Shown one piece after another: positions 2,971 to 10,339 of a stretch of DNA of 34,925 nucleotides. How positions within the stretch are numbered: the first letter of the stretch is position 1; every line of letters begins with the position of its first letter. The notes under the pieces are model-generated. The model searched no databases. It was not told where the DNA came from and saw only the letters and a program-made list of their open reading frames with translations. Source of the stretch: Nitrospirota bacterium (GTDB lineage Bacteria > Nitrospirota > Thermodesulfovibrionia > UBA6902); the NCBI GenBank assembly GCA_016213945.1, contig JACQZF010000076.1, forward strand, positions 1 to 34,925, in the 5' to 3' direction. The position numbers were made by a program, and so were the translations under genes.

Positions 2971-5618
2971 TACTTACACCAGCACCATTCAATCATTTCA
3001 GCCACAAGCCCTGTCCATCCGGTCTGATGGCCGGCCCCCAATCCACTGCACGTGTCGCCGTGAAAATATTCATGGAACAGGACGAGGTCTTTGAAATGAG
3101 GATCGCTGCGGTATTTCTCATCATCACCATGAGCAGGCCTCTTTCCATTTTGGTCCCTGATAAATATGGAAGTGATTCTCTGGGAAAGCACTTTGGCCAC
3201 ATCCCAGAGGTTCATGAAATTATTGGAACCTGTCGGGCATTCTACTTTTAATGTATCTCCATAATACAGGTAATACTTCTTCAACGCTTCAATTAAGAGA
3301 TAGTTGATGGGGACCCAGATAGGGCCTCTCCAGTTGGAATTGCCTCCATAAAGGCCGGCTATCGATTCGGCAGGCTCGTAATCAACTCTGTATTCCTTGC
3401 CATTGACTTTCATTGTGAAGGGATTATCTTTATGATATTTGGATATGGACCTGGTCCCACCGGGAGCCAGAAATTCATTTTCATCCAGCAGCTTTTGTAA
3501 TATCCTGACCAGCCGTCTCTTAGGCACGAGGGAAAGCAGTATATCCTTCCCCTCGCGCAGTTCTTCTATCGCAAGATACTTATTAAGGTTTATACGGTTG
3601 TTTCTGAACCATAACAGTCTTTTTCTGAAACCCTTAAATCTGTTAAAGACGTCTTTGTCTATCACGGATACTGCAAACAGGGAAGTGAGCCCCACTAAAG
3701 ATCTGACCTTGAGAGGCAGTTTATTCCCGTTCGGGAAATGAAGGGCATCATAATAGAAACCGTCTTCTTCGTTCCAGAGACCGTGTTCCCCGAGTTCGTT
3801 CAGTGATTCCGCTATATGCACAAAATGCTCAAAGAACTTTGATGCCGTGTCTTCATAAGAAGGATCTTCCTGCGCAATTTCAAGCGCCATATCCATGAGG
3901 TTCAGAGAGTACATTGCCATCCAGCTTGTGCCGTCAGCCTGTTCGATATGCCCGCCGGTAGGCAAGGCGCTGCTACGGTCAAATGCGCCTATATTGTCCA
4001 GACCGAGAAATCCACCCTGGAAAATATTATGCCCTTCAGAATCCTTCCTGTTCACCCACCATGTAAAATTCAGCAGCAGCTTGTGAAATACCCTTTTCAA
4101 AAAAACGATGTCCTTCTTGCCGCTGTCTCTTTTTTCAAGATTGTAAATCTTCAGTGAAGACCATGCATGCACAGGAGGATTTACATCGCTGAAATTCCAT
4201 TCATATGCAGGCAACTGGCCGTTGGGGTGCATGTACCATTCCCGCAGGAACAGGATGAGCTGTTTTTTCGCAAAGTCAGGATCGATCCTTGACAGAGGGA
4301 TGCAATGAAACGCCAGGTCCCAGGAGGCATACCATGGATACTCCCATTTGTCAGGCATTGAGATAATGTCCCTGTTAAACAAATATGGCCAGTCATGGTT
4401 TCTCCCATGTTCTCTGCTTTCAGGCGGTGAGGGTTGTCCTTTATCTCCCCTCAGCCACGACATGAGCTCATAGTTATAATACTGCTTGCTCCACAGCAAG
4501 CCTGCATATGCCTGTCTCTGCACCTGAATGACGTCGCTAACCGGCTCGTCAGGTTCAAATTGCCCATAAAATTGATCTGCCTCGACAATCCTCTGCTGAA
4601 ATATTGAGTCAAACTCTCTGTCAAAAGGACCGTCTTTAATTGTTTTGTTTGACAGGCGCAATTTAATAGTCTTGGATTCTCCGGATGGTATCTCAAAGCG
4701 GTAGACAATTTCACATTTTGTACCGTTATGTTTTTCCCTGAACATGGCAAAGTTATTGTTGACGACGGCATCATGGAAGGCATCTTTTACAAAGGGAGAA
4801 CTATTAGGCATTTGGAATAATTTTTCCGTGTTGGTTTCGTTTTCAGTAAAAAGGATGATGTCGGCTTTTTCAAAGTGTAAATAGTATGTCCCCATCTCTT
4901 CATGTACAGCTTCTACACTATTTCCGTCAGTCTGCCCGGATAATTTTATATCAGGCCTGGTTTTCATATTGCTGAATACCCAGGTATTTCTGAACCAGAG
5001 AGTCGGCAGAACAGTTATTCCGGCGCTCTCTTCACCGCGGTTGAATATCTCTATCTTTATCAGGATGTCTTCGGGGGCTGCTTTGGCGTATTCCACAAAG
5101 ACGTCAAAATATTTATTCCCCTCAAAAATGCCGGTATCAGGCAGTTCAAATTCTGGGTCTTGCCTTGTTCTCTTTTTATTCTCTTTCAGCAATTGAGCGT
5201 AAGGGAAAGCTGCCTGGGGATATTTATATAAATACTTCATGTAAGAATGTGTCGGAGTATTGTCGAGATAATAATAAAGCTCTTTGACGTCCTCTCCGTG
5301 GTTGCCTTCATACGGGTTTAATCCAAAAAGTCTTTCTTTCAGAATAGCATCATTGCCGTTCCACAGCGCCAATGCAAAACAGAGGTTCTGCCTTATGTCT
5401 GATATCCCGGCAAGGCCGTCTTCACCCCATCTATATACACGGGAACGAGCATGCTCATGCGGGAAATAATTCCAGGCATCTCCGTTTTCACTGTAGTCTT
5501 CACGTACGGTCCCCCATTGCCGTTCGCTTAAATACGGCCCCCAATTCTTCCAGAAGACTTTATGCGAGGCATTGTCTTCAAGCCGTTGCCCTTCAGTTGT
5601 TTTGTTTCCACTGTTCAT
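2970..5618 (-). CDS. GH63-like glucosidase (MGH1/YgjK type)
   Basis: This 882-residue protein has no signal peptide and is probably cytoplasmic. It matches the large glucosidases annotated as GH63 or mannosylglycerate hydrolase-like: an N-terminal beta-rich part (to about residue 350) followed by an (alpha/alpha)6 barrel. Family-like motifs include KWEYPWYASWDLAFH (about 424-438, with a candidate acid Asp in ASWD), GGFLGLDNIG, ADGTSWMAMYSLNLM, GNSNWRGPIWVP and, near the C-terminus, LFHEYFHGD and GAGHQTGWTGL, where the Glu of HEYF is a candidate base. It should release glucose or a related hexose from small glucosides; the exact substrate is unknown. It is the first gene of a three-gene minus-strand operon, divergent from a Crp/Fnr regulator and sharing its operator (5690-5707). 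Confidence 0.85.
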   Translation of the reverse strand: MNSGNKTTEGQRLEDNASHKVFWKNWGPYLSERQWGTVREDYSENGDAWNYFPHEHARSRVYRWGEDGLAGISDIRQNLCFALALWNGNDAILKERLFGLNPYEGNHGEDVKELYYYLDNTPTHSYMKYLYKYPQAAFPYAQLLKENKKRTRQDPEFELPDTGIFEGNKYFDVFVEYAKAAPEDILIKIEIFNRGEESAGITVLPTLWFRNTWVFSNMKTRPDIKLSGQTDGNSVEAVHEEMGTYYLHFEKADIILFTENETNTEKLFQMPNSSPFVKDAFHDAVVNNNFAMFREKHNGTKCEIVYRFEIPSGESKTIKLRLSNKTIKDGPFDREFDSIFQQRIVEADQFYGQFEPDEPVSDVIQVQRQAYAGLLWSKQYYNYELMSWLRGDKGQPSPPESREHGRNHDWPYLFNRDIISMPDKWEYPWYASWDLAFHCIPLSRIDPDFAKKQLILFLREWYMHPNGQLPAYEWNFSDVNPPVHAWSSLKIYNLEKRDSGKKDIVFLKRVFHKLLLNFTWWVNRKDSEGHNIFQGGFLGLDNIGAFDRSSALPTGGHIEQADGTSWMAMYSLNLMDMALEIAQEDPSYEDTASKFFEHFVHIAESLNELGEHGLWNEEDGFYYDALHFPNGNKLPLKVRSLVGLTSLFAVSVIDKDVFNRFKGFRKRLLWFRNNRINLNKYLAIEELREGKDILLSLVPKRRLVRILQKLLDENEFLAPGGTRSISKYHKDNPFTMKVNGKEYRVDYEPAESIAGLYGGNSNWRGPIWVPINYLLIEALKKYYLYYGDTLKVECPTGSNNFMNLWDVAKVLSQRITSIFIRDQNGKRPAHGDDEKYRSDPHFKDLVLFHEYFHGDTCSGLGAGHQTGWTGLVAEMIEWCWCK

Positions 5619-6658: not shown

Positions 6659-7183
6659 ATGAAAAGAATATTGAGCACATTGATATCGGTTATTATTCTT
6701 TTCATCGTTCCATTAATTTCATCTGCTGATGATAAAACAGATGTATTTCTTGTTCATCTTAAAACAAGCCTGAAGAAAGACGACGCGCAGATATGTGTCG
6801 CCTATAATGTCATGTGGGCGGCGCTGGAAGAGGGATTTAAGGTAAAGGTGCTCATTGATGCTGATGCCATAAATACCTACAAGGTCGGATGGTTCGGCAA
6901 AGACGATATTGAAGCATACAAGATACCGGAAAATCTCAGACAGGAACTCTCGAAACAATTCTCTGCTGATCTCGATGCCGTGCCAAAGACGTACGGAGCA
7001 TTCCTTATAATGCTGAAGGATCGCGGAGTTGAGTTCTATATCAATAAAGAGATGCTGATAGTCTCCAATATTGGAACGCCTGAAGAACCTTTGAAGCAAA
7101 TATCAGCCAAATTTTTCAAATCCGTAGCGCTTAAAGAGATAGTGAGAATGAGAGCTGAAGCAAAATATTATATGGCATACTGA
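6659..7183 (+). CDS. Exported DsrE-fold protein
   Basis: This protein of about 174 residues starts with a signal peptide (MKRILSTLISVIILF, cleaved near SSA-DD). The mature part has a DsrE/DsrF-type alpha/beta fold: an opening strand VFLVHLKTSL, a helix carrying DDAQICVAYNVMWAALEEG and a strand KVKVLIDADAI. Relatives handle sulfur (persulfide relay) or are uncharacterised. Only one cysteine (in QICVAY) remains, at a site that does not look like the DsrE active cysteine, so a direct sulfur-relay role is doubtful. ATG 6659 is preferred over GTG 6650 because AAAAGG (6645-6650) is well spaced for it. The next gene is the UGA-containing glutaredoxin, which suggests a thiol/selenol redox setting. 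Confidence 0.75.
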   Translation: MKRILSTLISVIILFIVPLISSADDKTDVFLVHLKTSLKKDDAQICVAYNVMWAALEEGFKVKVLIDADAINTYKVGWFGKDDIEAYKIPENLRQELSKQFSADLDAVPKTYGAFLIMLKDRGVEFYINKEMLIVSNIGTPEEPLKQISAKFFKSVALKEIVRMRAEAKYYMAY

Positions 7184-7249
7184 AAGTCTTGACACTGAGA
7201 GACGTGTCTATTATGAGAAACGTACAATGAAACCGTAAAGGAGTAATAT

Positions 7250-7486
7250 ATGGCAGAAAAAAGCATTGTCGTTTACAGCCAGACGGGCTGAATGTTCTGC
7301 TCGAAAGTGAAAGAGTATCTTTCACGAAAAGGCGTCATATTTACTGAACGGGATGTTGCCGGGGACGAAGCCGCGATAGATGAATTAAAGAAGATGGGTG
7401 TCATGACCACGCCGGTGACTGTAATTGACGGTGAAATGGTAATCGGGTTTGACATGAAAAAACTGGAACAGTTGTTGAATAAGTAA
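7250..7486 (+). CDS. Glutaredoxin-like selenoprotein (in-frame UGA at codon 14)
   Basis: A good ribosome site (AAAGGAG) precedes ATG 7250. The frame reads MAEKSIVVYSQTG, then TGA (7289-7291), then MFCSKVKEYLSRKGVIF and on to TTPVTVIDGEMVIGFD, 78 residues in all. This is a normal-length glutaredoxin/NrdH-type thioredoxin fold with its cis-Pro motif (TTPV). In relatives the position of the TGA is the first Cys of the CxxC active site, so the protein reads UxxC (U-M-F-C) if UGA is decoded as selenocysteine. A hairpin with bacterial SECIS features starts 16 nt after the UGA (7307-7325). The rest of the frame is intact, which argues against simple decay. Conventional gene calling would start at the ATG after the UGA and lose the active site. 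Predicted role: cytoplasmic dithiol/selenol oxidoreductase. Confidence 0.85.
7292..7325 (+). promoter_or_regulatory. Putative bacterial SECIS of the glutaredoxin gene
   Basis: After 15 unpaired nt following the UGA, GTGAAAG (7307-7313) pairs perfectly with CTTTCAC (7319-7325) around the loop AGTAT. The loop has G at its second position followed by U, as expected for SelB recognition. The loop G lies 24 nt after the last base of the UGA, within the known bacterial range. Confidence 0.7.
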
Positions 7487-7618
7487 GCATAGTTATGAAT
7501 ATTAAGATTAAAGACGGCCTTGGCACTTTGTCATAAGCGCTAATATTTGAATTATAGAAACAAGCACGCTATATCTTGCTGTTCATATAAAAAACGGAGG
7601 GAAAGGAGGTGAAATAAG

Positions 7619-7987
7619 ATGAAGATTTTAAAAACGTTATTAATGTCCTTAGCTGCTTCAGTATTTCTCTTTTCTGTGGCATTTGCAGGGGGCGGCGATG
7701 CAGAAAAAGGCAAAGCCCTTTTCAATGACCCGAAGGCTTTCGGAGGCAGCACATCATGCAGTTCATGCCATCCGGATGGAAAGGGACTGGAAAAGTCGGG
7801 GATGGAAGGCAAAAAGGATTGGAAAAATCCTGCCGGGACGTTCAAAAGCCTTGAAGAAACAATAAACGTGTGTATCACTATGGCAAATAAAGGCAAGGCG
7901 ATTGACACGAAATCCCAGGAAATGAAGGACGTAATAGCTTATATCAAGTCGCTGGGCAAGGAGATGAAAAAAGCGCCGGGTTATTAA
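7619..7987 (+). CDS. Small periplasmic monoheme cytochrome c
   Basis: This 122-residue protein has a signal peptide (MKILKTLLMSLAASVFLFSV, cleavage after AFA) and one CSSCH heme-attachment motif at about residues 47-51, so the heme is bound covalently in the periplasm. Methionines near residues 82 (ITMANKG) and 101 (SQEMKDV) are candidate sixth ligands. The C-terminal helix EMKDVIAYIKSLGKEM is typical of class I cytochromes c. It probably shuttles electrons, partner unknown. A perfect Shine-Dalgarno (AAAGGAGGTG) precedes the ATG, and a strong terminator follows the gene (8001-8035), so it looks like a short, well-expressed unit. A possible promoter upstream (TTGTCA 7528-7533, TTATAG 7552-7557) is weak. 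Confidence 0.88.
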   Translation: MKILKTLLMSLAASVFLFSVAFAGGGDAEKGKALFNDPKAFGGSTSCSSCHPDGKGLEKSGMEGKKDWKNPAGTFKSLEETINVCITMANKGKAIDTKSQEMKDVIAYIKSLGKEMKKAPGY

Positions 7988-8000
7988 AGCAAACATTTGA

Positions 8001-8035
8001 GGGAGAGGGGCCGTTCCCTCTCCCATTTTTATTTT
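8001..8035 (+). terminator. Rho-independent terminator after cytochrome c
   Basis: GGGAGAGGG (8001-8009) pairs with CCCTCTCCC (8016-8024) across a 6-nt loop and is followed by ATTTTTATTTT. This is a textbook terminator that separates the cytochrome gene from the transaldolase gene. Confidence 0.9.
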
Positions 8036-8104
8036 CCAATCAGTCAAGAAGCCGATGAGTTCACTGATGGATATCAAGAATACACTGAAAATGAAGGAGA
8101 CCCG

Positions 8105-8968
8105 ATGAGACCACGTGACCTTAAAACGAAGATATTTTTAGACGGCGGTGATCCCGGCGAGTCAAAGGCTATCATTAACCTTATCGGCTTTCTGGATGGA
8201 CAGACAACAAACCCGACTCTTATTTCAAAAAATCCTGAAGCGCGGGAACGTCTTAAGCGGGGTGATAAGTTCACAGAGGATGAGATATATCACTTTTATA
8301 GACATGTGGTCGGGGAGATATCATCGCTGATTCCTCAAGGGTCAATATCGATAGAAGTGTATGCAGACCTTTCAACAACCGCGGAGCAAATGTTCAAACA
8401 GGGGGAGCAGATGTTTGCATGGATTCCCAATGCGCATGTTAAATTCCCTTCCACAAAGGAGGGTTTGAAGGCAGCGGAGCAGGCGGTTAAAAATAAAATG
8501 CGCGTTAATATGACCCTCTGTTTTACTCAGGAACAGGCAGCAGCCGTATATGCCGCAACATCGGGCGCGAAGAGGGGAGATATATTTGTCTCACCTTTTA
8601 TAGGGCGTCTTGATGACAGGGGAGAAAACGGCATGGCTTTAATTGCCAATATCTTAAAGATGTTTAGTAAGAGCGACGGTCACGTGCTGGTACTGACAGC
8701 AAGTGTAAGAACATTTGGCCATCTGATGTATGCTCTATATCTTGGCTCGGATATAATTACAGCTCCATATAATATTCTGAAGGAATGGGGAGAAAAAGGG
8801 CTTCCGATGCCGACAGATGATTATGTCTATGATTCCGGAAAGTTAAGTGATATCCCATATAAGGATATCGACCTGTCCCGAAACTGGCAGGAGCATGATA
8901 TCAGTCATGATTTGACCATTAAAGGTATAGAGAGGTTTTCTGCGGACTGGAATTCGTTAATAAAATAA
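8105..8968 (+). CDS. tal: Transaldolase family protein
   Basis: This 287-residue TIM-barrel enzyme should transfer a dihydroxyacetone unit between sedoheptulose 7-phosphate and glyceraldehyde 3-phosphate in the non-oxidative pentose phosphate pathway. It opens with KIFLDGGDPGESKAI, then GFLDGQTTNPTLISKNP (the transaldolase TTNP motif), SIEVYADL, VKFPST (containing the likely Schiff-base Lys), NMTLCFTQEQA and VSPFIGRLDDRG. It is longer than fructose-6-phosphate aldolases and shorter than the E. coli TalB class. ATG 8105 is chosen because GGAG lies 5-8 nt upstream and the N-terminus then fits the family; longer reading would cross the terminator. The DUF3179 gene follows 15 nt downstream. RpiA and Gnd of the same pathway are encoded at 19.7-21.4 kb. 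Confidence 0.88.
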   Translation: MRPRDLKTKIFLDGGDPGESKAIINLIGFLDGQTTNPTLISKNPEARERLKRGDKFTEDEIYHFYRHVVGEISSLIPQGSISIEVYADLSTTAEQMFKQGEQMFAWIPNAHVKFPSTKEGLKAAEQAVKNKMRVNMTLCFTQEQAAAVYAATSGAKRGDIFVSPFIGRLDDRGENGMALIANILKMFSKSDGHVLVLTASVRTFGHLMYALYLGSDIITAPYNILKEWGEKGLPMPTDDYVYDSGKLSDIPYKDIDLSRNWQEHDISHDLTIKGIERFSADWNSLIK

Positions 8969-8983
8969 AGGAGGTAAATAACA

Positions 8984-9628
8984 ATGGCGATGATAAAAAG
9001 AATTACGTTTATTGCTGTGTTGATCATAAGTCTTATTGGCTGCACAAGTCAGGTTGCTCCATCCGTTTCCGTCGTTCGGGAAGACGGCAAGACATACATT
9101 GTGGATAAAACCGGATACAAGTGGGATGTCACCCAGGCAGAATCGATCGGATTCAAGCCTGATAAATTTCAGTATGGTATGGGGAAAGACGCGATTCTCC
9201 CTCTCGATGCTTCCGAGCTGAGTGACGACAAAAAAGACGTCCCTGATGATCTCCGCATCATCGGTGTTGAAGAAGGCCCAACTGCACAGGCGTATTCCGT
9301 GCAAAAGCTCCGCAGTCATGAGGTGGCGAACAGCGCCATCGGATCAAAGCCTATAGCTGTAGGCTATTGACCACTTTCAGACCTGGCGGCTGTGTACAGT
9401 CGCGAGCTTGACGGACAGACATTGACGATTGCGCCTGCAGGCTGGACATACAATAACACCTTTGTATTATATGACAAAGAAAGCGGGACCCTCTGGTATC
9501 CTGAAAGAGGCGGACTAAAAGGCATTCAGGGCAAGTATTTCGGACGGGTCCTTACAAAAGTCTCATCCGAAGATATTCGATGGGGGAAATGGCAGAAGAA
9601 ATATCCGGAATCGAAGATCCTGAAATAG
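8984..9628 (+). CDS. DUF3179 lipoprotein, candidate selenoprotein (UGA at codon 129)
   Basis: AAAGGAGG precedes ATG 8984. The N-terminus is a lipoprotein signal (lipobox LIGC near residue 20). The frame continues through RIIGVEEGPTAQAY, HEVANSAIG and SKPIAVGY, meets TGA at 9368-9370, and continues in the same frame with PLSDLAAVYSRELDG, LYDKESGTLWYPERG and WGKWQKKYPESKIL to a TAA, 214 residues in all. Both halves align end to end with DUF3179, whose hallmark is a YCPLC motif. Here the first Cys is the UGA codon and the second is Ser (Y-U-P-L-S). A SECIS-like hairpin follows with the same geometry as in the glutaredoxin gene. Selenocysteine is therefore the best reading; a nonsense mutation is the alternative. 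The function of DUF3179 is unknown; surface redox chemistry is my inference. Confidence 0.8.
9371..9403 (+). promoter_or_regulatory. Putative bacterial SECIS of the DUF3179 gene
   Basis: Fifteen nt separate the UGA from GCGGCTG (9386-9392), which pairs with CAGTCGC (9397-9403; one G-U pair) around the loop TGTA. The loop has G at its second position followed by U. The G is 24 nt from the UGA, identical to the glutaredoxin element, while the stem sequences are unrelated. Confidence 0.65.
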
Positions 9629-9658
9629 ATAGTCTGCCATTGCTGTGTAAATGCAGTC

Positions 9659-10339
9659 TTACTGTTTCGTGTGCTTTCCGAAATATTTATCGAAAAATAG
9701 CGGTTTGTGTTTTTCTATCCACCGAGGAAGGATGAAGAAGATCGCGACCATGCAGACCCCTAATACTGTAGAAATGCCTTTATGAACAATGAAAACAGCC
9801 CCGAAGGAAGTATAGACAAATGTCAGAGGTATCATGCCCAGGAAGGTCATTATCGTAAATGCCCGGAGCGACATCTTCGTAAGCCCGGCGCCATAGCTGA
9901 CAATATCGAACGATATGAAAGGCACAAGCCGGGAAATAAACACTACTTTTGACAGCAGCTTGTTAGAGCACTGTGTGCAGAAATTGATATGCCCGCCGAC
10001 GAACCGTTCCAGTACTTCACGTCCCAGAAACCTTGCGATCAGAAAGCTGACAATTGCACCTGCCAGTCCGCCGACAACCGAATAGAGAGTCCCCAAGATA
10101 GGCCCGAATACCGCACCGGCTGTGATATCAAGGGGAAGACTGGGAATGGGACTGATCACAACCGCCACTGCCATCAAGAACATGTAAAAGAGAGGGCCGA
10201 GCATCCCTGCATTATTCAGCATGACTTGCAGTCTCTCAGGATTGAAAAACGACGTAATGTCCCAAGTGGAATGGATAAGGTAAAGAACGACAATCAGAGC
10301 AATAAAAATAACGATCTTTGTTCGGGGATATCTTTTCAT
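9659..10339 (-). CDS. TVP38/TMEM64-type (VTT domain) membrane protein
   Basis: This protein of about 226 residues has some five to six hydrophobic helices and the VTT/SNARE-associated core DITAGAVFGPILGTLYSVVG, followed by SFLIARFLGREVLERFVGG. The family (DedA relatives) is linked to lipid scrambling or transport at the membrane, though the function of this member is unknown. The Cys pair in FCTQCSNK is unusual. Start choice: ATG 10339 begins MKRYPRTKIVIFIALIVV, a normal N-terminus; the frame is open further upstream but that part overlaps the preceding gene and does not look like the family. It lies 49 nt after the Cys-rich gene, in the STAS-led operon. Confidence 0.82.
   Translation of the reverse strand: MKRYPRTKIVIFIALIVVLYLIHSTWDITSFFNPERLQVMLNNAGMLGPLFYMFLMAVAVVISPIPSLPLDITAGAVFGPILGTLYSVVGGLAGAIVSFLIARFLGREVLERFVGGHINFCTQCSNKLLSKVVFISRLVPFISFDIVSYGAGLTKMSLRAFTIMTFLGMIPLTFVYTSFGAVFIVHKGISTVLGVCMVAIFFILPRWIEKHKPLFFDKYFGKHTKQ

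Follow-up and report, generated by a model that had tools for sequence, protein, structure and literature searches.

Two genes of the window, by which we mean the whole stretch of 34,925 bases analysed here, carry an in-frame UGA followed by a hairpin. Both hairpins are almost certainly bacterial SECIS elements of the canonical kind, each in a selenoprotein gene of a known family; their spacing appears to be inherited within each gene family and to be equal in the two by happenstance. The SECIS reading, put forward in the original prediction, is borne out at the sequence level by the presence of the machinery genes, by the conservation of the UGA and of the Sec/Cys pairs and by covariation in the stems. 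The window is one complete contig (C55) of a Nitrospirota genome of 3.5 Mb in 101 contigs.

Predicted Selenocysteine-Encoding Genes and Their Hairpins

The Sec-containing glutaredoxin-like gene (7250..7486, forward strand) encodes 78 aa, with U14 in the motif U-M-F-C. Its translation belongs to the glutaredoxin family (Pfam PF00462, 3.9e-17), with a Sec/Cys pair at the CxxC position, and its selenocysteine codon (7289..7291, forward strand) is in frame and kept as UGA in homologues. The Sec-containing DUF3179 gene (8984..9628, forward strand) encodes 214 aa, with U129 in the motif Y-U-P-L. The protein matches PF11376 at 2.9e-29 (102.9 bits, cut-off 27), and its in-frame UGA (9368..9370, forward strand) is aligned with the Cys of other DUF3179 proteins, at the YCPL cysteine position. 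In each gene the frame crosses one TGA and continues into the Pfam domain. Both genes are ordinary members of families already catalogued as selenoproteins, judging by their sequences, and both are liable to truncated annotation or omission if the UGA is not taken as a Sec codon.

The nearest NCBIfam models of the glutaredoxin-like protein include TIGR02196 (GlrX_YruB) and Uxx-star; the protein stays below the cut-offs of TIGR02196 (76.6 vs. 88.55 bits) and NF041212 (Uxx-star; 52.6 vs. 66 bits) and scores lower still with the remaining Uxx-star models. The N-terminus of the DUF3179 protein is lipoprotein-like by eye. The predicted structure of the latter (8984-9628) has a mean pLDDT of 91.9 and a pTM of 0.83; a Foldseek comparison of the model with the PDB returned no match at E ≤ 0.001 (best 0.23), and the modelled fold is one without an evident solved relative. 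A sequence search against solved structures with DUF3179 and the candidate protein P0004, described below, as queries gave nothing significant.

An Rfam scan of the window gave 0 matches at gathering score, no tRNA was found in the window, and positions 6900-9700 had no match in a plasmid collection. The glutaredoxin–DUF3179 neighbourhood is not conserved, the adjacency being absent in the other loci compared (about 1.5–2.5 kb per side). Among the loci compared, the transaldolase-like gene beside DUF3179 is kept only in a genome of the same genus (G325, locus L019).

In the glutaredoxin-like gene, the TGA at 7289-7291 is followed by 15 nt and then by GTGAAAG-AGTAT-CTTTCAC (hairpin 1, 7307..7325, forward strand; stem 7307-7313/7319-7325, loop AGUAU at 7314-7318). 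In the DUF3179 gene, the TGA at 9368-9370 is followed by 15 nt and GCGGCTG-TGTA-CAGTCGC (hairpin 2, 9386..9403, forward strand; stem 9386-9392/9397-9403, loop UGUA at 9393-9396), where one of the seven pairs is G-U. The two thus have the same geometry, as had been claimed: a 7-bp stem from +16 and, at +24, a loop G (7315 and 9394) with a U after it. Energy folding adds one A-U pair that closes the glutaredoxin loop (8 bp, loop GUA), so that "identical 7 bp" depends on where counting stops. Both hairpins lie inside the limits of the bSECIS model for the upper stem (4–16 bp; 7 bp in each), the distance from UGA to apical loop (16–37 nt; 22 nt in both) and the minimum free energy (at most −7.5 kcal/mol; −8.5 and −13.7, with the first 9 nt held unpaired).

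Selenocysteine Machinery and Proposed Decoding

The genome contains selA, selB, selC and selD, the full set that marks a Sec-decoding organism. selA (625.8 bits), the nearby selB (360.7 bits; the only match to pass the selB cut-off) and tRNA-Sec lie together on contig C18. The selC gene, at C18:123820-123913, scores 73.9 bits (cut-off 47) and is called by ARAGORN as tRNA-SeC with the anticodon tca. selD (C91, 328.7 bits) itself contains an in-frame TGA, as does an fdhA-like gene.

From these sequences we infer that SelB binds the hairpins and that Sec is inserted at both codons. SelB carrying Sec-tRNA would bind the hairpin loop, with its early G followed by U, in a hairpin placed 15 nt past the UGA, and would bring selenocysteine to the A site during translation. 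In the protein, selenocysteine would then occupy the redox-active cysteine position of relatives, UxxC in the glutaredoxin-like protein and Y-U/C-P-L in DUF3179. The +16 spacing would be one value inside the range served by one SelB.

Spacing of SECIS Elements in the Genome

Eight Sec sites were found in the parts of the genome examined and were folded with the 9 nt that follow the UGA left open. The stem starts at +16 in two glutaredoxin-like genes (Grx1 and Grx2; loop GUA at +24) and in DUF3179 (loop UGUA at +23), and at +17 in a C_GCAxxG protein (PF09719, 2.2e-34; loop CGGGGU at +24). It starts at +11 in SelD (loop GGC at +18) and P0004 (loop CGGGC at +17), and at +12 in FdhA (loop GGUCU at +19) and in a peroxiredoxin-like gene (Prx; L288, C54, TGA at 5007), which has a 9-bp hairpin with the loop GGC at +21. 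The product of the last gene is peroxiredoxin-like by eye, with the UGA in TFV-U. The C_GCAxxG_C_C protein (L121:678-1106, C73:180678-181106) has Sec at U17, and a hairpin at +17 is found in four relatives (L177-L179, L183).

The original prediction had taken the shared geometry as a lineage-specific template, which would mean that SelB imposes a stem at +16 and a G at +24 on most or all of the genome's SECIS elements. The exact template fits three of the eight sites (Grx1, Grx2 and DUF3179), two of them paralogues; C_GCAxxG misses it by 1 nt, and the glutaredoxin-type sites L086, L088 and L091 of family f25 fit it with an unrelated stem. Against it, stems start at +11, +11, +12, +12, +16, +16, +16 and +17 across the eight sites, and the loop G lies at +18 to +21 in SelD, FdhA, Prx and P0004. 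Among relatives from the same bacterial family, 12 SelD sites were readable, and the loop starts at +18 in 11 of them and at +17 in the other one. FdhA gave 27 readable sites, with the loop at +19 in 20. The remaining seven FdhA sites have a competing lowest-energy fold, with the same arms still in the sequence. These counts leave aside 9 of 21 SelD and 4 of 31 FdhA loci, in which the motif gave no site; L134 and L323 represent a single gene. The best hairpin loop of C_GCAxxG in family f25 lies near +37. The geometry is not restricted to the lineage either, since records titled Desulfobacterales or Deltaproteobacteria show the same geometry in DUF3179. As a general rule the lineage template is already refuted, and there is very little likelihood left that SelB dictates such a geometry here.

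The recurring loop positions of SelD and FdhA across relatives indicate that spacing goes with the gene family; SECIS spacing is a gene-family trait and not an organism rule. Two equal hairpins therefore do not amount to a genome-wide template, tempting as that step is, when spacing follows the gene family across phyla. A division into two spacing classes under one SelB, +11/+12 (SelD, FdhA, Prx and P0004; loops GGC, GGUCU and CGGGC) and +16/+17 (two Grx, DUF3179 and C_GCAxxG; loops GUA, UGUA and CGGGGU), is conceivable and rather improbable, because there are eight sites with two paralogues among them and because +13, +14 and about +30 occur in other genomes. If the division were real, the 4–5 nt step, empty of stem starts in between, would suggest two hairpin placements at the mRNA entry of the ribosome instead of a continuous range.

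Rarity of the Geometry

Within the window, the geometry occurs after 2 of 1,483 TGA triplets on both strands, which are the two Sec sites themselves. A background sample of 80 stretches of the same genome (1,450,244 bases, 41% of the genome, 60,589 TGA triplets) was scanned for a 7-bp stem at +16 with at most one G-U and a loop of 4–5. The stem was present after 60 of the 60,589 triplets, the stem plus G at +24 after 18, and the version with G-U after 4 of 60,589; in the first genome sample, the rates after other triplets were similar. One of the four G-U matches is the paralogous Sec glutaredoxin (Grx2, L152), and the other three are unlike selenoprotein genes. As the template was derived from the two window sites, these rates show how rare it is and fall short of a strict test.

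The template had also been offered as a means of finding more selenoproteins. Applied to 41% of the genome and the window, it recovered one further Sec site, the glutaredoxin paralogue, and no other selenoprotein. The candidate filter of the genome scan required coding potential on both sides and a hairpin of at least 5 bp; it misses FdhA and is not exhaustive.

It would be surprising, even more so than a geometry set by SelB, if the hairpins were side effects of a conserved protein sequence and of codon choice, with no function in the RNA. Synonymous recoding does form the glutaredoxin stem in 8,426 of 400,000 cases; with all seven pairs and the G at +24, the counts fall to 3,776 for the glutaredoxin-like gene and 332 for DUF3179 per 400,000. 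The folding energy over 45 nt is only moderately unusual, 118 and 147 of 5,000 synonymous recodings being equally low. The original prediction made its case depend on similar hairpins being infrequent after random TGA triplets, and they are infrequent in the genome sample and under the codon null. The comparison of relatives given below bears on the same question from another side: the full 7/7 stem stands in 2 of 22 Cys-type DUF3179 genes, as a by-product might, while among the named-genome loci it is seen at none of 44 Cys-type and at 20 of 37 Sec-type sites, and compensatory pair switches are found in both stems.

Conservation in Glutaredoxin-Like and DUF3179 Relatives

The reading as functional SECIS elements was followed through the relatives of both genes. 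A search of 395 genomes of the phylum turned up glutaredoxin-like relatives in 116. Among 26 glutaredoxin-type UGA sites, the loop has G at +24 in 19 and U in 6, and the hairpin is absent in 1 (L057); other homologues have Cys where Sec stands. In the alignment of 23 distinct stem sequences, which excludes L057, 99.4% of cells are paired, compared with 37–65% when partners are slid by 1–3 columns. Pair 1 is C-G in 15 and G-C in 7 sequences, and pair 5 switches from A-U to G-C. The f25 sites L086, L088 and L091 share the geometry with an unrelated stem. In L062, L065, L069, L076, L080 and L084 the stem is kept and U replaces the loop G at +24 (Asp GAU for Glu GAG); in these six genes either the G at +22 may serve or the loop G may be less needed.

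Within the phylum, DUF3179 relatives occur in 41 of 395 genomes; from named genomes, 80 loci were kept of 524 confirmed, the closest relative being that of Nitrospiraceae bacterium SURF_11 (86% identity). The full 7/7 stem at +16 is present in 20 of the 37 readable TGA sites and absent from the other 17, and the 44 Cys sites set against them include at least two chance motif matches (second matches of L217 and L263). L212, L236 and L248 have no readable site. The element GCGGCUG-UGUA-CAGCCGC is nearly unchanged between Nitrospirota and the records titled Desulfobacterales or Deltaproteobacteria, and the variants ACGGCUG/CAGCCGU and UCGGCUG/CAGCCGA were found.

When the three stem types were aligned jointly, the alignment was gap-free with the 3′ arm mis-registered (loop 4 vs. 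5), and pairs were therefore counted per family. The DUF3179 stem alignment covers the loop-4 clade only; L019, L196 and L199 (near-duplicates), L212 (no motif), L215-L217 and clades with other hairpins were dropped. In its 26 sequences 97.3% of cells are paired, against 14–46% with slid partners, a control biased toward any structure that, like this one, was read from the consensus. Pair 1 is G-C in 16, G-U in 4, A-U in 2, U-A in 1 and unpaired in 3 of the 26, and it is mainly from one pair that the covariation comes. The two Cys-type genes with a 7/7 stem at the same place are L038 and L043; most Cys-type genes pair at least 5 of 7 positions, which suggests that the peptide itself favours part of the DUF3179 hairpin.

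In DUF3179 clades such as L222, L257, L269 and L270, a 7-bp stem is possible at +14, with the loop CGUGU and G at +22, the overall minimum-energy fold of L269 and L270 being a different one. The Val-Tyr codons GUGUA give G-U at +22 and +24, and the stem is slid by 2 nt between clades (+16 in L192-L214). The 37 Sec sites, whose stems start at +14 or +16 while the GUGUA codons stay the same, form a natural series for SECIS register sliding under a fixed peptide. In a Calditrichaeota record (L215), DUF3179 is present as two Sec-type copies separated by about 0.9 kb. Two DUF3179 genes contain an extra stop, a TAA at a Tyr position in L021 (G313) and a TGA at a Trp position in the Cys-type L040 (G282); these stops are errors or decay.

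That the two UGAs of the window are sequencing errors, pseudogene stops or TGA reassigned in this genome is next to impossible, fragmented as the assembly is into 101 contigs: the same UGA stands in many independent genomes, and this conservation refutes error and decay, while the UGA aligns with Cys and not Trp, and tRNA-Sec, selA and selB are present.

Candidate Selenoprotein P0004

One of the eight sites lies in P0004 (C35:56464-57234; L145:1464-2234), a secreted-looking protein of 257 aa with an in-frame TGA in MI-U-GCHLTPGGLW and no Pfam or NCBIfam match. Its predicted structure (mean pLDDT 89.2) has beta-sandwich, Ig-like matches of low TM-score. Homologues occur in 78 of 295 phylum genomes. 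In 15 aligned sequences, including P0004 itself, the Sec position is UGA in 4 (this genome, G000, and G209, G154 and G172), Cys in 2 (G223 and G251) and Ser in 9. A hairpin with the loop CGGGC or CGGGU at +17 is common to three of the four UGA sites; the fourth (L166) was missed by the motif scan. The excerpted review lists of PMC9312934 and PMC13188914 give UGC motifs only for the DUF1573 and TlpA/Prx-like families. On its sequence, P0004 probably represents an unlisted family of selenoproteins that has a Sec-Gly-Cys motif.

Comparison with Known Systems

The SECIS of Escherichia coli fdhF has its stem at about +12, a loop G at +20 and a bulged U. The window hairpins resemble it in their position just after the UGA and in the loop G-U; they differ in lying 4 nt farther from the UGA and in that no bulged U was seen in them. 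Its closer relative is the FdhA hairpin of the same genome, with the GGUCU loop at +19.

The bSECIS model, in the excerpt of PMC13188914, allows 16–37 nt from the UGA to the apical loop; both window hairpins are inside the model, and their 22-nt spacing is one value of that range. The listed part of the same source names DUF3179, C_GCAxxG and UXX-star selenoproteins, and that of PMC9312934, including its Table 1, names DUF3179 (UxxC/T), Glutaredoxin and Grx-like GlrX_YruB families. Among the Grx-like selenoproteins (GlrX_YruB/Distant Grx-like protein 1, UXX-star and Glutaredoxin UxxC), the window protein is alike in its Pfam Glutaredoxin domain and in Sec at the first Cys of CxxC, and it differs in its sub-cut-off NCBIfam scores, as a divergent member, and in the motif U-M-F-C. 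The DUF3179 protein of the window is like the DUF3179 selenoproteins (PF11376) in having Sec at the Y-C/U-P-L cysteine; compared with the UxxC/T motif in the listed part of PMC9312934, its +3 residue is S (U-P-L-S), and that of close relatives is A, Q or V.
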